DNA from: a virus
DNA: 24,201 nt
IMG/VR virus record: IMGVR_UViG_3300024520_000487
Location: 1-24,201 of that record
Reading direction: 5' to 3' (one strand)
Within the stretch, counting starts at the first letter, position 1, and each line of letters begins with the position of its first letter. The position numbers were made by a program, and so were the translations under genes. The notes beneath the pieces were generated by a model. That model was not told the DNA's origin and ran no database searches. It worked only from the letters and a program-made list of their open reading frames with translations. Of the stretch, positions 1-23,961 are shown piece by piece.

Positions 1-3000
1 CAACAGGTTCTTTAGAACCGGAAGCTGATACGGTCGAGGTGCCTGACGGGCATACGCCTCACCATCCGAATCGTAATCGTACAACCTGTTCTTGAACGGA
101 ACATCGGTAAACAACTTTTTGTTTGTCGCCAACTCCACCGGCACCTTGATCGCAGGTGACGTATCCGAAAGCATACGCAGCGGATCAAACCCGTCCGGAC
201 CAGTACCGGTAATCGCAGCCAAATCCTGCCGGAACCGCAGAGACGGCAAGTCAGGTGTGAAATAGACGGTGCCGCCATCACGCTCACCCCAAGGTGTCTT
301 AATGGCACCCATTTCCTCAAAGTAGCCAGGTGTTACCTGGTCATCTTCGGAACCCAACTCCAAGTTTCGTTTGATGTTGAAATATGATCGGTTCAACTTG
401 CCAGGTGAATGCGACCAAACAGACGCCTGTAGAGCCATGTTCCGAGAGTAAAACATCCAGAACGGGCTAACCCTCTTAGCTCCACGATCAAACCCCGAGA
501 TGTCTCGATAGTTGAAGTGGAACCTTTCGATATGCTCCAAAGCTGTAACCTTGTCGCCGCCCTTAACCATAACGTCATAGGCGTGCCCACCACGCATCCT
601 GGCCTCAGCGTTACCGGATCGTTCACGAATCCACTTCGTAGGCAAAAAGTCTGTTGAGAACGGGTTGGCGTTAAACTTACCACCAGCCAAGTTTTGTGTA
701 ACTTCCTGAGCTTGCAAACCCCAACCAGAACCAGCCGCAGCCTCCAACGCCCCCTGGAGGTTCGGAATGTCATCCTCAAACCCGTGCTTCTTCGCCCACT
801 TGTTAGCGGCCTGCACACCACCCAGATGCCCCCTGGACTCTGATGTCAGCCAACCCTCATACTCTTTCAGATATCGTTGGAACTTTGAGAAGTTCCGAAC
901 CGTAACATTATCAAGATACATACCGAACATACCGGAATAAAGGTTACGAGCCACAAACCCCGGACTGGCCGTAGCATACGACTTCCACAAGTTCAACGCT
1001 TGATCGTACCCTCGGATAACCTTAGCCAACTCCTTAGCCTGCGCTGGGTCAGTCAAATCAATCTGACGTTTCAAAGCGTCAGCATACCAGTCAGGTGCCT
1101 GCAAAGTGTCGTCAATCATCCGGTAACCGTCATCGGTCACACGCATCATATGTTCGGCAAACTTCGGATCAGTCAACGAACGAACAATACCGTCACCAAC
1201 CTCTTGGGCCGAAACTTTCATGTTGAAAGTAGCGGCATCATACGACAAAGCCTGAGCCTCCATATTACGGATCAGATCAAAACTTTTATCCTCACCCAAA
1301 TCCTTATAGGCTTTCAACATGACATCCATCTGTTCGGACAACAAATCGTTAGCCTCCTGCTTACCAGCCAGGTCGCCTTTCTTGCCAACCTTCGCTCCGT
1401 CAGCGAACTTAGCGCCCTTGCGGTACAGGTCGTTGGCGTTCATCAGCCGTGTTCGGGCTGTCTCGGTGTCCATCATCAACCAGACATGGGCGTTAGCGGC
1501 ATCGGTATGGGCCTCGAACTTGCTTAGGAACTGTGCCCTGGTTTCACGAACACCCTTCTCCGCTTGAGCCAGAGTAGAAACAGTCTCTTTCGTACCAGGG
1601 ACCGGAAACATCTCGTCCATAGCGTCACGAGCCTTCTGAGCCTCATCCAGATTTTGCTGAAAGATCGTGTGAGCCTTCTCAGCTTCCTCACGAGCCGCCG
1701 CCCAATCAGCCTTCGACTCAACCTTACGTGCCCGCTCCAACTTCCCGTTGGTGAAACTGATCTTCTCCTGGGCTGCAACAATGTCAGCCTCAAGTTGCTT
1801 GATCTTGATAGAAGCCGTACGCTTAGCACCCTTACCCTTAGAGGACTTCATAGCCCTAAACAGAGATAGCGCACTCTCATAAGCCCCCAACTGGCCCTGG
1901 AGAACATTCACAGAAGATTCCAGTTGAGCAATCTTCTCAGCCGACTCCTTGATAGTAACATCAATCTCACGCAACATCGTCCTGGCAGCATCACGGCCAC
2001 CCCGAGCGTCCTTAGCAGCCTTCTTCAACGCCTTCTTCCGAAGGTTGGCAGACGCAACCAGGTTCGCTAGCTCAGCAGCCTCCAACGAAGCCTTGTCCAC
2101 CTTGAACGGGGCCGAACCAAGAACATTGTCAGCAATGTTCTTGTTCGCAATACCGTCCTTCAACAACTGTAGCTGACCGGCCTTCATGTACGATCCGAGC
2201 AAACCGGGAAGGTCATCTTCCAACACTTTGATGTTGACGGCCTCCATCGAAATCTCATTCAGCCGTTTGATCGTCAAATCTGATTCTGTTAGAATGGTCC
2301 CAAAAAAATCGTCACCCGCCTCCAATGTTCGTGCCTTCACGAACGCCTGATCGGGTGCGTTCACCAACTTGACGATACCGGACAAACGTTCCTCACCAGC
2401 CTGGAACAACTCTAGCGCAGCCTTCGTCGGAACATGATTGATATATCCGGACCTAAGATTAAAATCAATACCAGCATCCTTGAGAGATGCACCCGCTGAA
2501 TCAAACCAGGCGTTCACCTGGGCTGCACGACGACCAGCCACACTACCATCTAGCACCGAAGGGTCCAGCCTTGATCGCTCAACGAGGTCAATGATCTCAC
2601 CGCTGTCATATTTTCGGTTCTTTTTTCCCAGCCAACGCATCGAAGTAGTTGATCGCTTGGCCGCATTATCGGCCCAAAAGTGTGAACCCATCTTAGCCAA
2701 ATGCACGTTAGACAAAGCTACCGCTGCCTCAGGGGCCGTACTCGAACCCAAGATGATAGCTTCCTTGGCAGCAGCTTCCAACGCCCCGAACGTAGCATCG
2801 TCAGCGGCCATCCGTGCCCTAAACTTACCGGCCCTATCCGTCTTAGACAACCAATGCTTGAAAGCCCCCTTGCCTGACTCGGATAGTTCCGCCAACCGGC
2901 GGCTACCAGCAATAGCGACCCTGTATGTTTTGCCACCGAACGAATACCCTAGACGTGACTGGACACCCAACTCGCCCAACAGGTTATCTGTCACACCCAT

Positions 3001-3849
3001 CTCGGCAAGTGATTTGCGAGTGAAAGCGGAACGTCCATGCGTTCCGGCTTTGCCGATTAGCGCCCTGGTAGCCAACTGGTCGGCAGCAGCCTGAGCAGGC
3101 AACTTCACCGCCTGATTCTGTGTTGCCTCTCGACCGATAGCCTTAGCCAACCCAAGTCGTTCCCCAGACTTCAACGCAGCATCAACAGTACCCAGCTTAG
3201 CGCCACCCTTAGCTACCGTACCAAACCTGGTATACAGCAACGGGTCAACAGCGAGGTCCCCAGCGATACCGGCAACCTGACGCATCCACAACGGCCGATC
3301 CGTACCGTCAGCCTCTGTAGCGGCCTGGACAATCTCACCAAACCCCTTATGCTCATCAACATTCTTTTTGATGTCAGCCCAACTGAAATCTCCGTCGTAC
3401 GGGTTCTTGTAGTCGGGGTCATCGAAATCTGTTCGGGAAGCCAAACCGACCGGGGCCAACACATCCTCGATACCTTTAGCGAGAGGCTCGCCAACAACAT
3501 CCAACGTCTCTTTCAGTAGCGCAGCCGGATATCGCCTAGTAAGGTCCACGGTGTCGATCAGCTTAGAGAACGCTCGACCAGCCAACGAACCATCCCCACC
3601 ATCCCCACCATCGAGAGTACCGGCGTTCTCACGGCTAGCCCGAATCTCAGCCATCGTCTCAGCCAAAACATCCGAACCACCCGGACGGGCCGTAGGTGTA
3701 GGGGGACGCAAAACGCCGCCAGACCCAGAGGGTCGTGACGGCAGTTCAACTTGTGACCCAAAAGTAGGCAGACGGGTAGCGCCCACCAAATCAGGGTTAA
3801 ACGTATCTTTCTGGGCGGCGATCGCCCGAATCTCATCAATCAGAGACAT
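1..3849 (-). CDS. Giant internal virion / large polyvalent-type protein (partial, C-terminus outside window)
   Basis: This frame is open from an ATG at 3849 to the window edge, giving at least 1283 residues with no stop. The first residues read MSLIDEIRAIAAQKDTF. Residues about 600-770 are rich in Ala, Lys and Glu and look like long coiled coil. Near residue 1115 is a stretch reading FDRGAKRVSPFWMFYSRN, followed by an aromatic- and proline-rich segment. This resembles the 'FER-x-KR-x-x-PFY-x-W-x-RKN' signature I associate with large internal proteins of short-tailed phages (large polyvalent protein-associated domains). In such phages these proteins are packed in the capsid and ejected with the DNA; that role is inferred here. 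It is the last gene visible in the late operon and follows three small internal-virion-type genes. A palindrome (3860-3874) ends 10 bases before the ATG. A lytic or other enzymatic domain could lie in the part I cannot see. Confidence 0.75.
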   Translation of the reverse strand, partial: MSLIDEIRAIAAQKDTFNPDLVGATRLPTFGSQVELPSRPSGSGGVLRPPTPTARPGGSDVLAETMAEIRASRENAGTLDGGDGGDGSLAGRAFSKLIDTVDLTRRYPAALLKETLDVVGEPLAKGIEDVLAPVGLASRTDFDDPDYKNPYDGDFSWADIKKNVDEHKGFGEIVQAATEADGTDRPLWMRQVAGIAGDLAVDPLLYTRFGTVAKGGAKLGTVDAALKSGERLGLAKAIGREATQNQAVKLPAQAAADQLATRALIGKAGTHGRSAFTRKSLAEMGVTDNLLGELGVQSRLGYSFGGKTYRVAIAGSRRLAELSESGKGAFKHWLSKTDRAGKFRARMAADDATFGALEAAAKEAIILGSSTAPEAAVALSNVHLAKMGSHFWADNAAKRSTTSMRWLGKKNRKYDSGEIIDLVERSRLDPSVLDGSVAGRRAAQVNAWFDSAGASLKDAGIDFNLRSGYINHVPTKAALELFQAGEERLSGIVKLVNAPDQAFVKARTLEAGDDFFGTILTESDLTIKRLNEISMEAVNIKVLEDDLPGLLGSYMKAGQLQLLKDGIANKNIADNVLGSAPFKVDKASLEAAELANLVASANLRKKALKKAAKDARGGRDAARTMLREIDVTIKESAEKIAQLESSVNVLQGQLGAYESALSLFRAMKSSKGKGAKRTASIKIKQLEADIVAAQEKISFTNGKLERARKVESKADWAAAREEAEKAHTIFQQNLDEAQKARDAMDEMFPVPGTKETVSTLAQAEKGVRETRAQFLSKFEAHTDAANAHVWLMMDTETARTRLMNANDLYRKGAKFADGAKVGKKGDLAGKQEANDLLSEQMDVMLKAYKDLGEDKSFDLIRNMEAQALSYDAATFNMKVSAQEVGDGIVRSLTDPKFAEHMMRVTDDGYRMIDDTLQAPDWYADALKRQIDLTDPAQAKELAKVIRGYDQALNLWKSYATASPGFVARNLYSGMFGMYLDNVTVRNFSKFQRYLKEYEGWLTSESRGHLGGVQAANKWAKKHGFEDDIPNLQGALEAAAGSGWGLQAQEVTQNLAGGKFNANPFSTDFLPTKWIRERSGNAEARMRGGHAYDVMVKGGDKVTALEHIERFHFNYRDISGFDRGAKRVSPFWMFYSRNMALQASVWSHSPGKLNRSYFNIKRNLELGSEDDQVTPGYFEEMGAIKTPWGERDGGTVYFTPDLPSLRFRQDLAAITGTGPDGFDPLRMLSDTSPAIKVPVELATNKKLFTDVPFKNRLYDYDSDGEAYARQAPRPYQLPVLKNLL
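2283..2295. promoter_or_regulatory. Palindromic ATTCT-N3-AGAAT element, intragenic
   Basis: ATTCTGTTAGAAT lies inside the giant virion protein gene. It has the same two half-sites and 3-base spacer as the copies at gene boundaries, with G for A at the first spacer base. It may be a functional binding site or chance codon use. Confidence 0.4.
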
Positions 3850-14043: not shown

Positions 14044-14072
14044 TGGCCGGGCACCCTTACGGTGCCCGGCCA
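14044..14072 (-). terminator. Strong hairpin terminator after the major capsid gene
   Basis: TGGCCGGGCACC and its exact complement form a 12-bp stem with a 5-base loop, 27 bp beyond the capsid stop. On the minus strand it is followed by TTCGTCTTTAC, a weak T-rich tract. It would stop most capsid transcripts, setting a high capsid-to-tail ratio. Confidence 0.8.
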
Positions 14073-16136: not shown

Positions 16137-16212
16137 TGGAGCCAGTGACAGGATTCGAACCCGCTGCAACTTGCTTACAAGGCAAGCACCCGACCATCCG
16201 GGTCCCGCTGGC
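16137..16212 (-). tRNA. tRNA-Thr(TGT)
   Basis: Cloverleaf of 76 nt: acceptor GCCAGCG/CACTGGC with one mismatch, D-stem ACCC/GGGT, anticodon loop CTTGTAA, T-loop TTCGAAT. CCA is encoded. It is the last tRNA of the array in transcription order. Confidence 0.9.
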
Positions 16213-16213
16213 A

Positions 16214-16289
16214 TGGCTCCGACCCAGGGTTTCGAACCCCGCTCTCCTGATTAACAGTCAGGTTCTATCGCCAAGATTGATAGATCGGA
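16214..16289 (-). tRNA. tRNA-Asn(GTT)
   Basis: Acceptor TCCGATC/GGTCGGA, anticodon stem CCTGA/TCAGG with loop CTGTTAA, T-loop TTCGAAA, discriminator G, CCA encoded. One base separates it from the next tRNA on each side. Confidence 0.9.
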
Positions 16290-16290
16290 A

Positions 16291-16365
16291 TGGTTCTTCA
16301 CCAGGGATTCGAACCCTGACCGGTACGATTAAGAGTCGCCCATGCTACCTTAACACCTGTGAAGA
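16291..16365 (-). tRNA. tRNA-Lys(CTT)
   Basis: Acceptor TCTTCAC/GTGAAGA, D-stem GTGT/GCAT, anticodon loop CTCTTAA, T-stem CAGGG/CCCTG, discriminator A, CCA encoded. The outer pair of the anticodon stem is mismatched. Confidence 0.85.
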
Positions 16366-16398
16366 AGGTTTATGAAAAAACCGCAGGATCGTTGACAG

Positions 16399-16466
16399 CA
16401 CCGACACAAGGTAACGATCCCTGTTTCGCAGGTTTGGAAGCTGCTTACCGTCCTACGGCTGCCGGT
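16399..16466 (-). tRNA. tRNA-Trp(CCA)-like, with collapsed D-arm
   Basis: Acceptor ACCGGCA/TGTCGGT, anticodon loop TTCCAAA, discriminator G as in bacterial tRNA-Trp, CCA not encoded. At 68 nt it is short: the D-arm is only about CGT-AGG-ACG with no GG, and the T-loop is ATCGTTA rather than TTCGANN, so the usual D-loop/T-loop contacts cannot form. It may be a divergent functional tRNA or a decaying one. Confidence 0.6.
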
Positions 16467-16478
16467 TTGTTTATTCGA

Positions 16479-16556
16479 TGGGGTGAACGACGAGACTCGA
16501 ACTCGCTAACTACTTGGGTCACAACCAAGCGCCTGGGCCACTTCGGCTTCGTCCAC
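16479..16556 (-). tRNA. tRNA-His(GTG)
   Basis: Acceptor GTGGACG/CGTTCAC, anticodon stem CTTGG/CCAAG with loop TTGTGAC, T-loop TTCGAGT, discriminator C and CCA encoded, as expected for His. The base at position -1 is T, so the G-1 usually encoded by bacterial tRNA-His genes is missing. Confidence 0.88.
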
Positions 16557-16580
16557 AACATTTGGAACAACTGCTCCTAG

Positions 16581-16652
16581 TGCCCCCCGGAGGATTCGAA
16601 CCCCCATCTCACGGCTTAAAAGGCCAGTCGCTTACCGTTAGCTGAGAGAGGC
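16581..16652 (-). tRNA. tRNA-Lys(TTT)
   Basis: Acceptor GCCTCTC/GGGGGGC with wobble pairs, anticodon loop CTTTTAA, T-stem GGGGG/CCTCC with loop TTCGAAT, discriminator A, CCA not encoded. Together with tRNA-Lys(CTT) both Lys codons have a matching tRNA. Confidence 0.85.
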
Positions 16653-16657
16653 ATGTT

Positions 16658-16731
16658 TGGTAGTCCCACAGAGATTCGAACTCTGTCCTGCAGCTTGAGA
16701 AGCTGCGATACTACCCATATACGATGGGACC
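16658..16731 (-). tRNA. tRNA-Glu(CTC)
   Basis: Acceptor GGTCCCA/TGGGACT, anticodon stem GCAGC/GCTGC with loop TTCTCAA, T-stem CAGAG/CTCTG, CCA encoded. The acceptor closely resembles that of the adjacent tRNA-Glu(TTC), suggesting duplication. Confidence 0.9.
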
Positions 16732-16740
16732 AAAATGCGA

Positions 16741-16815
16741 TGGAAGTCCTACAGAGAGTTGAACTCTGTTCCCCAGGGTGAAAACCTGGTATCTTAACCG
16801 ATGGACGATAGGACC
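16741..16815 (-). tRNA. tRNA-Glu(TTC)
   Basis: Acceptor GGTCCTA/TAGGACT, anticodon stem CCAGG/CCTGG with loop TTTTCAC, T-loop TTCAACT, CCA encoded. Confidence 0.9.
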
Positions 16816-16820
16816 ATGAG

Positions 16821-16893
16821 CGCCATGTACGGGAATCGAACCCGTCACTCCAGCGTGACAAGCTGGCATGTTAACCGATAACACTAACACGGC
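16821..16893 (-). tRNA. tRNA-Asp(GTC)
   Basis: Acceptor GCCGTGT/ACATGGC, anticodon stem CCAGC/GCTGG with loop TTGTCAC, T-stem ACGGG/CCCGT, discriminator G (Asp identity), CCA not encoded. Its 5' end directly abuts the 3' CCA of tRNA-Cys. Confidence 0.9.
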
Positions 16894-16967
16894 TGGATGG
16901 AAACTCGGGAGTCAAACCCGATTCAGAAGGGTTGCAGCCAACTGCATAGTCGTCATGCTCGTTTCCA
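16894..16967 (-). tRNA. tRNA-Cys(GCA)
   Basis: Perfect acceptor TGGAAAC/GTTTCCA with discriminator T (Cys identity) and encoded CCA; D-stem GCAT/ATGC; anticodon loop CTGCAAC. The anticodon stem GTTGG/CCTTC has two T-T mismatches, so it is weak. Confidence 0.8.
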
Positions 16968-16968
16968 G

Positions 16969-17041
16969 TGGTTCCCCCAGGGTTCGAACCCGGTCCAACA
17001 GCTTTTCAGACTGCTGTGCCTCCAGAATACACCAGAGAACC
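16969..17041 (-). tRNA. tRNA-Phe(GAA)
   Basis: Acceptor GGTTCTC/GGGAACC, anticodon stem GCAGT/GCTGT with loop CTGAAAA, T-stem CCGGG/CCTGG, discriminator A, CCA not encoded. Confidence 0.88.
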
Positions 17042-17046
17042 ATGAA

Positions 17047-17070
17047 GGTTGGGGACCGAAGTCCCCAACC
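17047..17070 (-). terminator. UUCG hairpin after the 110-aa gene
   Basis: GGTTGGGGAC pairs perfectly with GTCCCCAACC around C(UUCG)G on the minus strand, a very stable tetraloop. It lies between the stop of the 110-aa gene and tRNA-Phe, with TTCATGG after it. It may attenuate transcription into the last eleven tRNAs or protect the mRNA 3' end after tRNA processing. Confidence 0.75.
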
Positions 17071-17074
17071 GAAC

Positions 17075-17407
17075 TCAGGTAGCCAAGGCTGCGTGCCAAC
17101 CAGTAGCAGTAGTCTTGGTCAAAATCACCATGTCGCCAGCAGCGACAGTAGCGACCGTACCAACAATCGTATCCGAACCAGTCTTAGCGGAAGTGACCGC
17201 ACCAGCACCGATCTGGATAACGAAAAAGACTGTACCCAAGGGCCAATCAACAGTAGTTGACTCGGGAAGCGTCAACGTTGTAGCAGAGCCATGAGACACT
17301 GTTACAGCAGAGAACGGGCCTGTCCGAGACGACAGAGTGTTAGCAGCCCCTGTAAGGGCTGTGAGCCGGGTCCGTCCGACCGGCGCAGTTGAAGCAGTTG
17401 TTGCCAT
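17075..17407 (-). CDS. Small fibre-type structural protein inside the tRNA array, 110 aa
   Basis: The segment SHGSATTLTLPESTTVDWPLG, then TVFFVIQIGAGAVTSAKTGS and DTIVGT resembles a beta-rich module seen in phage fibre and head-appendage proteins (LTVP-x-N-x-x-V-x-FP-x-GT-x-I-x-V-x-Q-x-GAGQVTF). Here it forms almost the whole protein, so it is probably a small virion decoration or fibre-tip protein. AAAGGA lies 10 bases before ATG 17407. The gene splits the tRNA array into 15 upstream and 11 downstream tRNAs and is followed by a UUCG hairpin. Upstream there is a short inverted repeat GTTTG-ACG-CAAAC and TATACT (17427-17443) but no clear promoter pair. No signal peptide is seen. Confidence 0.7.
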   Translation of the reverse strand: MATTASTAPVGRTRLTALTGAANTLSSRTGPFSAVTVSHGSATTLTLPESTTVDWPLGTVFFVIQIGAGAVTSAKTGSDTIVGTVATVAAGDMVILTKTTATGWHAALAT

Positions 17408-17514
17408 TTCTGTGTATCCTTTTTTAGTATACTAGTTTGCGTCAAACCCTAAAAGGTGTTTGGCGACTTCAAGCTGGAAGCCTGCGTTTCACAACATGGG
17501 TTGCGATTGTTTTG

Positions 17515-17595
17515 TGGTGGGCCGAGATGGAATCGAACCACCCATGCCGAAGCGGCTGGTTTACAGCCAGCGTGAACACCTTGTTCTTTCGACCC
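17515..17595 (-). tRNA. tRNA-Tyr(GTA)
   Basis: Acceptor GGGTCGA/TCGGCCC, anticodon stem GCTGG/CCAGC with loop CTGTAAA, class II variable arm of about 12 nt, T-stem GGTGG/CCATC, discriminator A and CCA encoded. The D-loop is short. Confidence 0.88.
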
Positions 17596-17677
17596 TCAAA
17601 CCACGGTCTCCCACATCATTCTACTTCCCCTACCGCAGTCAGCCTAGGGAACCTTGCGTTAGATATGGTGGCTAGCG

Positions 17678-17752
17678 TCTGGATGGAAGGATTCGAACCT
17701 CCGATGCTCCTGATTCCAAATCAGGCGGGCTGGCCTACTGCCCCACATCCAG
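17678..17752 (-). tRNA. tRNA-Pro(TGG)
   Basis: Perfect acceptor CTGGATG/CATCCAG, anticodon stem CCTGA/TCAGG with loop TTTGGAA, T-stem GGAGG/CCTTC, discriminator A, CCA not encoded. An 82-bp stretch without recognisable feature separates it from tRNA-Tyr. Confidence 0.9.
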
Positions 17753-17763
17753 TTGTATTGCGA

Positions 17764-17841
17764 TGGAGTACCTACACGGATTCGAACCGTGACCTGCTGG
17801 GTGGAAGCCAGTTATGCTTGACCGTTAAACACCATAGGTAC
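17764..17841 (-). tRNA. tRNA-Gly(TCC)
   Basis: Perfect acceptor GTACCTA/TAGGTAC, anticodon stem ACTGG/CCAGC with loop CTTCCAC, T-loop TTCGAAT, discriminator T as usual for Gly, CCA encoded. Confidence 0.9.
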
Positions 17842-17842
17842 C

Positions 17843-17918
17843 TGGTGGAGAAGGCCGGATTCGAACCGGCAGCCGTCTACTTGCAAAGCAGTTGCTCTAC
17901 CATTGGAGCTACATCCCC
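17843..17918 (-). tRNA. tRNA-Ala(TGC)
   Basis: Acceptor GGGGATG/CTTCTCC includes the G3-U70 pair that defines alanine identity; anticodon loop TTTGCAA; T-stem GCCGG/CCGGC; discriminator A; CCA encoded. One acceptor pair (6-67) is T-T. Confidence 0.9.
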
Positions 17919-17919
17919 G

Positions 17920-17994
17920 TGGTCCACGAGGCACGGATCGAACATGCCAGTGACAGGATGTAAACCTGCTAGGGACACCAGTCCCGACTCGTGG
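17920..17994 (-). tRNA. tRNA-Val(TAC)
   Basis: Perfect acceptor CCACGAG/CTCGTGG, anticodon stem GCAGG/CCTGT with loop TTTACAT, T-stem GCATG/CGTGC, discriminator A, CCA encoded. Confidence 0.9.
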
Positions 17995-18008
17995 TTTATA
18001 AAACCTAG

Positions 18009-18082
18009 TACCGCTTACAGGGATCGAACCTATCTGAAACACCTTATCAGGGTGTCGCCTACAACCAGTTGGCTTAAACGGC
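18009..18082 (-). tRNA. tRNA-Ile(GAT)
   Basis: Acceptor GCCGTTT/AAGCGGT, anticodon stem ACACC/GGTGT with loop CTGATAA, T-stem ATAGG/CCTGT, discriminator A, CCA not encoded. It reads AUC and AUU but not AUA. Confidence 0.9.
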
Positions 18083-18083
18083 A

Positions 18084-18159
18084 TGGTACCCAAGGTGGGA
18101 GTCGAACCCACAGATTACAGTTTCTAAGACTGCTGCCTATCCCGTTCGGCTACTCGGGC
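18084..18159 (-). tRNA. tRNA-Leu(TAG) with class I (short) variable loop
   Basis: A complete 76-nt cloverleaf: acceptor GCCCGAG/CTTGGGT, D-stem GCC/GGC, anticodon stem GCAGT/ACTGT with loop CTTAGAA, T-stem GTGGG/CCCAC, discriminator A, CCA encoded. The variable loop is only AATCT (5 nt), whereas bacterial leucine tRNAs normally have a long class II arm. Confidence 0.85.
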
Positions 18160-18164
18160 ATGAG

Positions 18165-18251
18165 CGGAAAACTGAGGGCACGATCCCCAAGACGTTTAAC
18201 CGTCCCATACAGTTTAGCAAACTGCTCCCGAACCTATCGGGTTAGCTTTCC
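18165..18251 (-). tRNA. tRNA-Ser(GCT)
   Basis: Acceptor GGAAAGC/GTTTTCC, anticodon stem GCAGT/ACTGT with loop TTGCTAA, long class II variable arm with stem GACG/CGTC, discriminator G, CCA not encoded. The T-loop is ATCGTGC, which departs from TTCGANN. Confidence 0.82.
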
Positions 18252-18257
18252 ATGCGA

Positions 18258-18343
18258 TGGAAGAAGGTAGAGGAATCGAACCCCCAGGTGTTACCCCGCC
18301 CCAGGGTTCAAACCTGGTCGCCAACCATTTAGCGGTACCTTCC
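18258..18343 (-). tRNA. tRNA-Ser(TGA)
   Basis: Acceptor GGAAGGT/ACCTTCT, anticodon stem CCAGG/CCTGG with loop TTTGAAC, 15-nt class II variable arm, T-loop TTCGATT, discriminator T, CCA encoded. A 90-bp spacer separates it from tRNA-Met. Confidence 0.88.
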
Positions 18344-18433
18344 ACGAAAATCACCCCAGGTGCTTCACCGATATCGTAATCAACCGGGAGAGGACGAGGA
18401 AACTGATCAGGTTTCCCTACCCCTGGGATACGT

Positions 18434-18505
18434 TGGTGGCGGGCCAGAGGATTGAACTCTGCACACTCAGGGTATGAGCCTAGTGGACTAACCATAGCGC
18501 CCGCA
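18434..18505 (-). tRNA. tRNA-Met(CAT), elongator or initiator not resolved
   Basis: Acceptor TGCGGGC/GCCCGCC has a T1-C72 mismatch, a feature shared with initiators, but the anticodon stem CTAGG/CCTGA lacks the three G-C pairs of initiators. Loop CTCATAC, T-stem CAGAG/CTCTG, discriminator A, CCA encoded. The D-arm is short (TGG-TTAGT-CCA). A tRNA-Ile2 with modified C34 cannot be excluded. Confidence 0.75.
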
Positions 18506-18517
18506 ACGAACTGTTAT

Positions 18518-18591
18518 TGGTAACTCCCCCAAGAATCGAACTTGGACACACCGGGTCAGAGCCGAGCGCACTACCATTATGCTAGGGAGTA
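18518..18591 (-). tRNA. tRNA-Gln(CTG)
   Basis: Acceptor TACTCCC/GGGAGTT with an open 1-72 pair (T-T), fitting the weak first pair favoured by GlnRS; anticodon loop CTCTGAC; T-stem CCAAG/CTTGG; discriminator A; CCA encoded. Confidence 0.85.
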
Positions 18592-18595
18592 TCGT

Positions 18596-18675
18596 TGGAA
18601 AGGGAAACCGGAATCGAACCGCAAGACACCACAGGGTCAAAGCCTGTTGGCAGCCCAGCCGCCGGTATCTCCCTA
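18596..18675 (-). tRNA. tRNA-Gln(TTG)
   Basis: Acceptor TAGGGAG/TTCCCTT with T1-T72 open, anticodon stem ACAGG/CCTGT with loop CTTTGAC, T-loop TTCGATT, CCA encoded. The T-stem keeps only three good pairs, so folding is weaker than in its neighbours. Confidence 0.78.
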
Positions 18676-18676
18676 G

Positions 18677-18750
18677 TAGCCCCCCTGGGACTCGAACCCA
18701 GACTGTACACTTTTTGAGGGTGTCGCCTCCTGCCATTGGGCTAGAGGGCC
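18677..18750 (-). tRNA. tRNA-Leu(CAA) with class I (short) variable loop
   Basis: Acceptor GGCCCTC/GGGGGCT, D-stem GCC/GGC, anticodon loop CTCAAAA, T-stem CTGGG/CCCAG, discriminator A, CCA not encoded. The variable loop is ACAGT (5 nt), the same unusual class I form as tRNA-Leu(TAG). The innermost anticodon-stem pair is C-A. Confidence 0.82.
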
Positions 18751-18778
18751 ATGTGTGACCTGACCTAGAGGGCCATCG

Positions 18779-18844
18779 TGTTTCACCAAGGATTCGAACC
18801 CTGAACACTTAGTTTAGGAAACTTGTGCTGTTCCTACGTGAAAC
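18779..18844 (-). tRNA. tRNA-Arg(CCT)-like, without a D-stem
   Basis: Perfect acceptor GTTTCAC/GTGAAAC, T-stem CAGGG/CCTTG with loop TTCGAAT, anticodon loop TTCCTAA, discriminator A, CCA not encoded. It is only 66 nt: about ten bases lie where the D-arm should be and no D-stem forms. The anticodon stem has an internal mismatch. Its first base overlaps the palindrome at 18844-18858. Confidence 0.6.
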
Positions 18845-18858
18845 ATTCTATTAGAATG
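18844..18858. promoter_or_regulatory. Palindromic element CATTCTATTAGAATG between two Arg tRNAs
   Basis: An exact copy of the element at 3860-3874. It occupies the 16-bp gap between tRNA-Arg(TCG) and tRNA-Arg(CCT), so any transcript start or cleavage here would generate the tRNA-Arg(CCT) 5' end. Confidence 0.6.
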
Positions 18859-18860
18859 CT

Positions 18861-18933
18861 TGGTACCCCTCCCAGGAGTCGAACCTGGCCTAAAAGCTTC
18901 GAAGGCTTCTGTCTGCGTTCCGTCAGCAGGGGT
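18861..18933 (-). tRNA. tRNA-Arg(TCG)
   Basis: Acceptor ACCCCTG/GAGGGGT (last pair G-G), anticodon stem GAAGC/GCTTT with loop CTTCGAA, T-stem CCAGG/CCTGG, discriminator A, CCA encoded. It is the first tRNA of the array in transcription order, 10 bases beyond the portal stop. Confidence 0.88.
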
Positions 18934-18943
18934 AAAACCCATA

Positions 18944-21142: not shown

Positions 21143-22795
21143 TCAAAAAACCGGGGTGGCACGACGGCGAACGCTTTTGCGTTTCTTGTCCAACTCGGCA
21201 GCCCACCAAGCGATCGACCCAGGAACCGTATCCTCACTAACACGACCAACCTGGTTTTCGATCGCATACCGGCGGGCCTCAACCGTAATGGCTAAAGCCA
21301 TTACGCAGTCATCATGCGGTGAACCATGCAACCTGATACGATCACCACGCTGCTCACGAACAAACGTTTTCAACTCCGCAATAGTCGGAGCATGAGGAAC
21401 ATTATGGGTCCGAGTCCAAATCGACAACTCCTGGAGAATATCAGCCTTGTTGCCGTGAGTCGTCAACCAGCCGATCGTCTCCGTTGGAGAAATCTGCCGC
21501 TTCATCTGAGTTCGCCGACGATAAATGCGGCTGTAACCCCTACGCCGCAAATGATCTACAGTGGTACGGCCATGATTGTTCACCTCGGGTGCAACCAAAG
21601 CATAGTTATACTTATAGCCGATACCGGCAATGATGGTTGCGAAATAGTCCGGCTCACACTTCCCCCGATACACCCCACAAATCTTGCCAGTCTCAGCATC
21701 CATCACAAACGCCACCGACCAGTCACCATGATCCAACCCCTGAGCAATATCCGCTCCGACAACATACGAGGCGAAACGCTCAGGCTCAGAATACACTTCG
21801 AAATCGCCGCCAGGGTCAACCTTGAACCGGTTACCTGTAGCTGTAGCCTCAATCATCCACGAGCCAAGAGATTCCTTGGCTCGCATATCCCGGATCGTTT
21901 CCAGATTGAAAAACGGGTTACCTGACCCGATAAACGCTTCCTCCGGGGTCGAAGGATACTCCTGGAACAGCATCCACGGCTCCATATTCTGTTTCTTATT
22001 CTCATACCAGGCTTCATCACGCTCAGGGACAGCCCACCAAGGATGAAAAATGCTTTTAAACGAGTTCGAACTCGTCTCAGCCCCAACAAACAAACGATGA
22101 AAGAAATCCCCCTCACCCTTCGCCGTGCTAAGGCCAACAATCCGACCACCGATGTCAGTAGCAGGCTCAACCGAAGCCCAAGCCTCCTCCTGGGAAGGAA
22201 AAGACGCCCACTCATCACAAATCACCAAAAAAGCCGTTTCACCACGAATAGGGTCCGACGCAGTAGGACCCGAAACAATGAACGAATCATTCTCAAACGT
22301 CATCTTCAACAACGTTTTGTCAATCACACTCGGGGCACGCTCACGAACCCACGCAGGCATCGACTTCCAAGCAAACTTCGTTTTATTCAACAACGCAACA
22401 GACGTATCTTCCTTCTTCGACAACATATAAATCTGCCGATCAGGCGCACCAATCGCCGTCCACAAACAAAAAGCCGCAGAAAGGGTAGAAAACCCCACCT
22501 GACGGGCCTTTAAAGTGACCGTGTAACGATACTTGAACCAAGAACGCACAGTATCCAACTGTGCTTCCCGAAGAATAAACGGAATCCGTTTCCCAGGAAC
22601 CTTGATAACGATCGCCTCAGCACAAAACTTGGTGAACGCCACCATCAAAGCATCCACCTCATCATCCGGGATCACATCCCGGGCATCAAACTGTAGAGAC
22701 TCAGGAAACCAAGACCTCCACAACAGTTCCTGATCCAGTTTCTCATCTGTCAAACCCCTAGATGCTGACTTCACCCTTTTGATCGCAGTCACCAT
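21143..22795 (-). CDS. terL: Terminase large subunit, 550 aa
   Basis: This is the packaging motor: an N-terminal ATPase and a C-terminal nuclease. The Walker A-like motif is LKARQVGFST (residues 95-104); Walker B is FLVICDEW with D194 and E195; the coupling motif is GLSTAKGEG (221-229). The RNase-H-type nuclease acids are D349 in GADIAQG, E404 in APEVNNHG and D495/D496 in PHDDC. The length is normal for the family. I place the start at ATG 22795, which shares one base with the small terminase stop (TGATG); a TTG one codon earlier is unnecessary. It pumps DNA through the portal encoded two genes downstream. Confidence 0.95.
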   Translation of the reverse strand: MVTAIKRVKSASRGLTDEKLDQELLWRSWFPESLQFDARDVIPDDEVDALMVAFTKFCAEAIVIKVPGKRIPFILREAQLDTVRSWFKYRYTVTLKARQVGFSTLSAAFCLWTAIGAPDRQIYMLSKKEDTSVALLNKTKFAWKSMPAWVRERAPSVIDKTLLKMTFENDSFIVSGPTASDPIRGETAFLVICDEWASFPSQEEAWASVEPATDIGGRIVGLSTAKGEGDFFHRLFVGAETSSNSFKSIFHPWWAVPERDEAWYENKKQNMEPWMLFQEYPSTPEEAFIGSGNPFFNLETIRDMRAKESLGSWMIEATATGNRFKVDPGGDFEVYSEPERFASYVVGADIAQGLDHGDWSVAFVMDAETGKICGVYRGKCEPDYFATIIAGIGYKYNYALVAPEVNNHGRTTVDHLRRRGYSRIYRRRTQMKRQISPTETIGWLTTHGNKADILQELSIWTRTHNVPHAPTIAELKTFVREQRGDRIRLHGSPHDDCVMALAITVEARRYAIENQVGRVSEDTVPGSIAWWAAELDKKRKSVRRRATPVF

Positions 22796-23427
22796 CAAGC
22801 ATCCCCGTCGGCCACGATGTCGTCAGAGGCCCCCACGTCGTCCCCAGAGGCATCAGAAACATCCCCAGAGGGTCCGATGGCCCTAGAATCGACTGACGCC
22901 GCTGTAGAAGCTTGAATACCCAGACCATTATTGCCAGCCCGCTCATTATACAGATTCCAAATCTCATCATCCGACAACTCATCCAACGCAATCTCCGAAA
23001 CATCCTTAGTGGTCAACAAATCGGGCTTACCGGTAAACGCATGATACACACCAACAGCCTTTAGGAACTCTCGGGCCGCTTCCAAACGCAGACGAGCAGT
23101 ACCCTGCTCGTCCTGGACCGTCTCGTAAATATAGTTGATCACATTTGAAATGCGGGCAGGATCGCCCGCATGATGCAAAACCATCCAACGAACAGCCTGC
23201 TGAACCTTCGGGTCCTTCGCCCACCGCCAGCCGGTAACCTCACTGACACCCAACTGGACACAAAGCTCGGCACGAGTCTGCGGATTCCGATACTTCTCAG
23301 GCGTAGCCTCCCACGCAACAAACATCACCTGACGCTCATTCAAAGACTGCTGTGCCTTCTGCAAAGACACGAGAGAAGGACGACCACCACTGGTTTGCCT
23401 AGGAACACCCACGTATGTAACCTCCAT
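22795..23427 (-). CDS. terS: Terminase small subunit, 210 aa
   Basis: Residues about 45-80 form a helix-turn-helix: NPQTRAELCVQLGVSEVTGW, then RWAKDPKVQQAV. This is the DNA-recognition domain of small terminases of the phBC6A51 type. A central helical region (residues about 90-130) would mediate oligomer formation, and the C-terminus is acidic and Ser/Asp/Ala-rich. I choose ATG 23427 (MEVTYVGVPRQ) with AGAAAG upstream. A longer frame would place the conserved 27-bp element at 23435-23461 inside the gene, which argues for the shorter start. It is translationally coupled to terL. It is the first gene of the late operon and is preceded by a large non-coding region where its DNA target may lie. 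Confidence 0.85.
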   Translation of the reverse strand: MEVTYVGVPRQTSGGRPSLVSLQKAQQSLNERQVMFVAWEATPEKYRNPQTRAELCVQLGVSEVTGWRWAKDPKVQQAVRWMVLHHAGDPARISNVINYIYETVQDEQGTARLRLEAAREFLKAVGVYHAFTGKPDLLTTKDVSEIALDELSDDEIWNLYNERAGNNGLGIQASTAASVDSRAIGPSGDVSDASGDDVGASDDIVADGDA

Positions 23428-23461: not shown

Positions 23462-23548
23462 GACACAGACACGGCGAGCGACAGCGAGCCGGGCCAAACC
23501 ACAAAACCAAGTTAACAAAAAACCAACAACCTACCAACAACCCACAAC

Positions 23549-23668
23549 GTTAACTAGTTAACGTTTAACTTCTTCGTAAGAAGAAGTTAAACACCTACCA
23601 AGTTAACTAGTTAACGTTTAACTTCTTCTCACGAAGAAGTTAAACACCTACTAAGTTAACTAGTTAAC
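23549..23668. repeat. 53-bp tandem repeat with palindrome and hairpin
   Basis: The palindrome GTTAACTAGTTAAC occurs at 23549, 23602 and 23655, exactly 53 bp apart. After each of the first two comes a perfect 13-bp hairpin, GTTTAACTTCTTC with its complement, at 23563-23592 and 23616-23645. The stems are identical but the 4-base loops differ (GTAA and TCAC). The third unit stops after the palindrome. Confidence 0.9.
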
Positions 23669-23670
23669 CA

Positions 23671-23697
23671 ATACACGTAAAGACAAAAACCGTCCCA
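23671..23697 (-). promoter_or_regulatory. Possible fourth, diverged 27-bp promoter-like element
   Basis: The minus strand begins TGGGACGGTTTTTGTCTTTAC and lies next to the 53-bp repeats, oriented toward them and terS. Fifteen of 27 positions match the scaffold copy without gaps, strongest at TGGGACG-N-T-N-TTTG. It may be real or a by-product of local A/C richness. Confidence 0.3.
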
Positions 23698-23759
23698 ACC
23701 ACAAAACCCCAGCAACAACCCACAAAACCACCCAAAACACACACACAACACCAAAAACT

Positions 23760-23797
23760 TAACACAAACATGACAAAGAAATAACACAAACATGACA
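23760..23797. repeat. Two direct repeats of 16 bp in the A/C-rich tract
   Basis: TAACACAAACATGACA occurs at 23760-23775 and 23782-23797, a 22-bp period (two helical turns). It could be a protein-binding pair. Confidence 0.6.
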
Positions 23798-23935
23798 CAC
23801 CACACACCAAACACACAACCAACCGCAACCACACAACACACAAACCAACCCCCAAAACACACCAAAAACAACCCAAAAACACACAAACCCAACCAACCCG
23901 CCTAAGTCCCAAACCAAAGAATCATATAGGGTTAA

Positions 23936-23961
23936 GGGGGGTAGGCCCCCCGTATACCCCC
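23936..23961. repeat. G-run/C-run inverted repeat at the composition switch
   Basis: Six G, TAGG, six C, then GTATA and five C. GGGGGTA (23937-23943) can pair with TACCCCC (23955-23961), or the G6 and C6 runs with each other. It could be a terminator for a rightward or leftward unit, or part of a cohesive-end site. Confidence 0.55.

Follow-up and report, generated by a model that had tools for sequence, protein, structure and literature searches.

A palindrome and hairpin array upstream of terS in an uncultured virus lies in a candidate late-operon leader whose layout recurs in related phages

Late gene control of the lambda type relies on the promoter pR', a Q-loading site and the leader terminator tR', and in phage HK022 the Put RNA acts in cis as an antitermination RNA. 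Lambda cosB and the pac sites of phages adjoin terS. Structured late leaders carrying terminators are known from lambdoid phages, according to the excerpt of PMC7171158. A TIGR array, as defined in the excerpt of PMC12045711, comprises 5-15 units with unrelated spacers of ~9 nt and an adjacent Tas gene with a Nop domain. Here we describe a virus record of 24,201 bases, called the window in its entirety, that contains an array in which palindromes alternate with hairpins; the array occupies 23549-23668 and lies ahead of terS, which is encoded on the minus strand (Table 1).

Table 1. Features of the late control region in the window, listed in the direction of late transcription.
Feature	Coordinates	Strand	Remarks
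Late-promoter-like element, GTATAC-N26-ATGATT, C/G boxes, -10-like TATATG	23920..23957	-	conserved among relatives
Untranslated segment of the leader, G/U-rich; A 4%, C 4%, G 40%, T 53%	23666..23918	-	base composition
Palindrome copy 1, GTTAACTAGTTAAC	23655..23668	.	exact repeat; stops in all six frames
Hairpin 1, 13-bp stem, sense loop GTGA (plus-strand loop TCAC)	23616..23645	-	
Palindrome copy 2, GTTAACTAGTTAAC	23602..23615	.	exact repeat
Hairpin 2, 13-bp stem, sense loop TTAC (plus-strand loop GTAA)	23563..23592	-	
Palindrome copy 3, GTTAACTAGTTAAC	23549..23562	.	20-bp extended form AACGTTAACTAGTTAACGTT at 23546-23565
CRE stem-loop, CGGC-TCGCTGTCGCTC-GCCG then TGTCT	23467..23491	-	conserved, covarying arms
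terS, first late gene	22795..23427	-	start ATG at 23427; GTG at 23412, after GGAGG, is the likelier start
terL	21143..22798	-	phrog_2, 2.6e-34

The earlier note on this DNA had described three 14-bp palindromes 53 bp apart that alternate with two hairpins of 13-bp stem, and this arrangement was recovered at exact coordinates and far beyond chance. The start-to-start distances of GTTAACTAGTTAAC were 53 and 53 bp. A search of the window allowing up to 3 mismatches returned the three exact copies only; shuffled sequences gave a mean of 0.47 and none of 100 shuffles reached three. Both hairpins have the form GTTTAACTTCTTC-loop-GAAGAAGTTAAAC with perfect 13-bp stems, for which 0 are expected, and they are the longest perfect stems of the 12 present in the window (stem of at least 9 bp, loop of 3-10 nt). 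Further copies of the palindrome or the hairpin were not found within the window. The bare hairpins are A/T-rich and have energies of -15.9 and -15.0 kcal/mol, as stable as the hairpin of an intrinsic terminator should be. No U-tract follows their stems; GTTAACTAGT follows both, and the terminator score was zero on both strands. Elsewhere in the window, a strong 12-bp hairpin without U-tract is located directly past the capsid gene (14044-14072).

The two 53-bp units differ from each other at six places. All six belong to the 13 positions made up by the 9-nt spacer and the 4-nt loop, and the 40 positions of palindrome and stem are invariant (Fisher p = 7.5e-5). The earlier note took the pairing rather than the loop to be kept. 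Besides the pairing, the stem sequence is identical between the two hairpins, and the loops look inverted rather than unrelated, since the 30-mer of the second hairpin is the reverse complement of the first save for one base (97%). As the second hairpin repeats the first in inverted orientation, apart from that one base, the whole 120-bp array is one large near-palindrome. It can fold into one continuous stem of some 50 pairs, interrupted by a 9-nt bulge, at -63.9 kcal/mol (z -8.5, equalled by 0 of 200 shuffles), and it is strand-symmetric except in spacers and loops. As read from the sequence, GTTAACTAGTTAAC closes all six frames by stop codons; the leader of the window before it contains 0, 1 and 1 stop codons in the three frames.

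The exact array was not found in the viral contigs, searched with the palindrome pair and with the hairpin, and no blastn match to it was obtained in phage or plasmid records. Among 94 loci it was present only in the window's own L001-L003 and L094. The complete relative MW202803.1 does not carry the palindrome, its best match having 3 mismatches, which is the chance level. Within the searched collections the array sequence is unique to this contig. The only Rfam matches above gathering score in the window and nine loci were tRNAs, and neither the layout described below nor the leader, the palindrome-hairpin alternation or the CRE stem-loop has an entry. The view that the array corresponds to no named element stands.

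Relatives were gathered by terL and capsid searches, and about 20 related uncultured phages were compared, near-identical loci being collapsed by eye to one per lineage. The terL identity to the window was 65% for L016, the closest relative with the region present, 54% for L026, 51% for MW202803.1 and about 50% for the L017 group; L017, L021, L024, L099 and L196 are mutually related, and a further group of relatives lies around L104-L109 and L193-L200. MW202803.1 is a complete, circular genome of 42 kb with late genes on the minus strand and early genes on the plus strand. Loci L005, L098, L103, L105 and L110-L114 were excluded as too short or duplicate, and L115 and the ~42%-MCP group were excluded on account of a differing gene order upstream of terL or because the elements were not detected in them. 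The host was not assigned, since the search for a prophage or host link gave, as best genome_contigs relative, one of only 34% terL identity.

The relatives share a common layout upstream of terS, consisting of a promoter-like element, a G/U-rich leader, one to four hairpins, the CRE stem-loop and terS. The promoter-like element contains GTATAC, C/G boxes and TATATGATT or TATAAT, often followed by GGTTCGGTAC. The gap from GTATAC to ATG[AG]TT is exactly 26 nt in 15 of 19 lineages, L016 being a TATAAT variant, and the pattern was not found in L006, L021 and L104. For L021 and L107 the scanned stretch contains no promoter, so that the start of the leader is arbitrary. A strict form of the pattern matched 9 times in 17 records, once per matching record, and every match had 26 nt although 20-28 were permitted. 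When a fuller pattern was run across all viral contigs, 12 stretches were returned, 11 with terS downstream and one (L205) that runs off its contig; the 11 comprise ten with terS and terL matches, among them L200 with portal too, plus L206. The conserved element has no -35 and was for that reason missed by a sigma70 promoter scan (TTGACA/TATAAT). The G/U-rich segment of the window has 253 nt and is 92% G+T on the sense strand.

Several other sequence features were observed around this region. TTAGG-n-CCTAA inverted repeats, which resemble DtxR/IdeR iron-regulator boxes, occur 63-182 nt upstream of the promoter-like element in L004, L026, L104, L106, L108, L197 and L200 (7 of 14 lineages). The closest relative, L016, carries twelve dispersed TTTCAGATTGAAA palindromes of a different repeat family in and near its control region (137-3051). 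Small ORFs that by eye resemble HNH endonucleases are located in the leader around conserved elements in L107 (902-1360) and L021 (about 108-453), and just after CRE in L196.

The CRE stem-loop of the relatives has a loop near TTCGCTTTCGCTTC, then TGTCT, and its arms covary: CGGC/GCCG in the window and CGCCC/GGGCG, CCCCC/GGGGG, GCACACC/GGTGTGT and GGCC/GGCC in others. The arms were matched by script, since MAFFT alignments put the stem-loop out of register; for L024 and L099 the stem that the script chose is not homologous, and for L016, L017, L021 and L196 it is shifted. A scan of viral contigs for one CRE form returned 11 stretches, ten before a terS relative and one by chance in a coding region. 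Tandem double CRE elements precede terS in L004, L009 and L193, and CCCCCTGTTGCGCTCGCCCCCCTC or a near variant, absent from the window, lies between CRE and terS in L104, L106, L107, L108, L109, L194, L197 and L200. The position of the array just upstream of terS was confirmed, terL being assigned by PHROG profile and terS by the match of 10 of 13 family members to phrog_2538, with the window's own copy giving no profile match. The gene order on the minus strand of the window is terS, terL, portal, 21 tRNAs, scaffold, capsid and tail genes. The 21 tRNA genes lie within the late operon, between the portal and scaffold genes, at 16137-18935; a similar block occupies the same place in L026, and MW202803.1 has only two tRNAs, located elsewhere.

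In 10 of 15 lineages, the window included, no more than 1 of 40 shuffles equalled the energy of the best leader hairpin; by the same test an exceptional single hairpin was not seen in L004, L009, L107, L108 and L109. Successive hairpins are separated by 53 nt in the window, 60 and 44 in L016, 54 and 44 in L017, 53 in L024, 55, 55 and 49 in L026, 54 and 51 in L099 and 54 and 52 in L196, a list that omits weak far-upstream structures in L016, L017, L099, L108 and L197. The other group of relatives is less regular (47, 54, 62, 75, 78, 82 and 82 nt), and L004, L009 and L106 have a single leader hairpin. Only in the window and L016 was the number of hairpins per leader above that of shuffles (at most 1 of 50), so the claim of a hairpin module draws on how strong the hairpins are, where they lie and how they are spaced, and not on how many there are. 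Among interior stem pairs that are not Watson-Crick (WC), we counted four G-T, one C-A and one other; the excess of G-T over C-A, 4 to 1, leans weakly towards the sense RNA and is too small to matter.

Over the roughly 218 nt that precede CRE, 9 of 20 lineages together carry 20 copies of ACTAGT; 200 shuffles gave 2.2 copies on average and never more than 6. L099 carries a 14-bp ACTAGT palindrome, TCTTACTAGTAAGA, between two hairpins, and GTTAACTAGTTAAC of the window looks like an extreme form of this shared ACTAGT part. The palindrome beyond ACTAGT varies among relatives, and ACTAGT is absent in 11 of 20 lineages. The absence of the array from close relatives, named in the earlier note as a refutation, came out divided: the exact sequence is absent from all collections searched, but hairpins of other sequence occupy the same place, spaced about 50 nt apart (~44-60 nt) in four lineages or groups, namely the window, L016, L026 and the L017 group, and in nine of the 20 lineages ACTAGT-centred palindromes lie near the hairpins.

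Sense terminators, defined as a leader hairpin with a stem of 7 or more WC pairs and, immediately behind it, 8 or more T in 10 positions, were present in 5 of 19 leaders (L016, L104, L109, L194 and L197), where shuffles expect 0.05; antisense terminators by the same definition were present in 0 of 19. The sense terminators argue for a role of the hairpins in the nascent late transcript of the relatives. For the window, the case for an RNA role is one of position only, as its own array lacks a U-tract and is strand-symmetric.

At the level of sequence, the comparison showed that the hairpin module of the window lies between the conserved promoter-like element and CRE, and that other hairpins of the relatives occupy the same slot. 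We consider it slightly less than an even chance that the array is the hairpin module of an untranslated late-operon leader of ~500 nt, acting in the RNA as a tandem terminator or attenuator that would be relieved when the late genes are needed. Transcription would start at the promoter-like element on the minus strand, and RNA polymerase would cross the G/U-only stretch before it reaches the hairpins in the nascent RNA, which may stop or slow it. A phage factor or RNA signal would then let the polymerase continue through terS, terL and portal to the 21 tRNAs and the capsid genes. As short inverted repeats, the palindromes also supply stops in all frames between the hairpins, so that ribosomes would not melt them. 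That differing hairpins are found at one place in the relatives suggests an RNA switch that may time the production of virus particles. The lambda-Q families PF06530 and PF03589 were found in 0 of 9 records, the window being a fragment without its early genes. No transcription regulator was detected among the early genes of MW202803.1 (19 proteins compared with Pfam, 10 with PHROGs). Of the three functions proposed in the earlier note (packaging site, iteron origin and bidirectional terminator), the terminator comes nearest, although the terminators of the relatives are on the sense strand only and the window has no U-tract.

Other explanations were weighed against the attenuator. A stem of about 50 pairs suffices in length for RNase III, and the leader RNA might form one long double-stranded stem, with palindrome 1 paired to 3 and hairpin 1 to 2, that is cut by RNase III or another nuclease or shields the 5' end and so sets the stability of the late mRNA. 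The energy and z score of the long fold speak for such a stem; however, it is peculiar to the window, whereas in the relatives the hairpins of the leader read as separate short stems, and local hairpins would form first during transcription. We regard this explanation as unlikely. Somewhat less likely again is that the palindromes are DNA operators, on which a dimeric phage regulator or TerS would occupy three sites five helical turns apart, the hairpins serving as spacers or cruciforms of a cosB-like packaging or regulatory array. The three identical, perfect palindromes at 53 bp (5.05 turns), the enrichment of ACTAGT cores near the hairpins, the strand symmetry of the array, as expected of a DNA site, and its position next to terS, as in lambda cosB, are consistent with operators. 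Against them, the palindrome changes past ACTAGT and is missing in 11 lineages although TerS is conserved. Several contigs, for example L016, L026, L200 and MW202803.1, cross the region, and the ends of the others are scattered: the contig of L029/L193 ends inside terS-terL, L114 about 0.5 kb and L108 1.7 kb upstream of terS, and L205 inside the leader. The contigs of the relatives give no sign of a fixed genome end here. For the array itself the packaging proposal finds no support, array sequences being wholly different among relatives where the stem-loop by terS is conserved; the array is, judged by its lack of conservation, not a packaging site common to the lineages, and CRE, which is kept across them, is the better packaging candidate.

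We give a small probability to a replication origin, in which the G/U-only transcript would prime synthesis through an R-loop or an initiator would bind the repeats as iterons. GC and TA skew changed from low or negative to strongly positive after the promoter-like element in all 14 lineages measured, the leader segment of the window is rich in G+T, and DnaA-like boxes lie near the promoter in 6 of 14 lineages. Transcription and codon use also produce skew, however, and no repeats are common to different lineages. The iteron proposal finds its repeats in the array, but in 5 of the 6 lineages the boxes precede the promoter by 247-489 nt, across it from the array, and only in L104 do they fall inside the leader. 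Just as improbable is a functionless repeat, either a decaying or selfish palindromic unit of REP/BIME type or a quasi-palindrome made by template switching. The exact sequence is indeed unique to this contig, and an inverted second copy could be produced by template switching, yet the differences between the units are all confined to spacer and loop, other lineages retain hairpins in the same slot, and the window contains no additional copies.

The comparison turned an isolated curiosity into a comparative system, in which promoter, leader and stem-loop can be recognised by pattern in about 20 uncultured phage lineages. If the array is an attenuator, it would show how late genes are timed in phages without a recognised Q or sigma factor, and how a block of 21 tRNAs, untranslated and embedded in the late operon, comes to be transcribed. 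A packaging or translation signal may reside in the covarying stem-loop at terS. A bolder reading, which we hold to be doubtful, is that the whole clade uses a new cis-acting leader RNA to control the late operon, composed of a fixed promoter, a G/U transcript nearly without A and C, hairpins ~50 nt apart that alternate with ACTAGT palindromes and turn over fast in sequence but not in layout, and the covarying stem-loop at terS; it could be an RNA for packaging or for processive antitermination without a protein, or else an R-loop origin.

Structured late leaders with terminators are of a known kind, and the layout, the G/U-only leader, the palindrome-hairpin alternation and CRE were not found in Rfam or in the literature searched, where listings and abstract openings held nothing on this leader. 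The array shares with TIGR arrays, as the excerpt of PMC12045711 presents them, repeats with 9-nt intervals in a phage, but it has two to three units instead of 5-15 and its gap is on one side only. A TIGR array was rejected against the definition in that excerpt, since the three 9-nt spacers of the window share 6 of 9 bases (3 of 9 differ) and are not unrelated guides. With lambda cosB and pac sites it has in common several similar short sites directly upstream of terS, whereas it is not conserved alongside TerS and the relatives show no genome end here. Like the Put RNA of HK022 and other cis-acting antitermination RNAs, this would be a structured leader RNA that opens a long phage operon; unlike Put RNA, it has no sequence or Rfam match and its array sequence is not conserved. 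Late control of the lambda type differs in that the window has no U-tract terminator, no Q of PF06530 or PF03589 was found, and this leader is G/U-only with several hairpins and palindromes. The two nevertheless share what would be a single late promoter, a long untranslated leader before the late genes, bases conserved around and just past the -10, and a sense terminator within that leader, which 5 of 19 relatives have.
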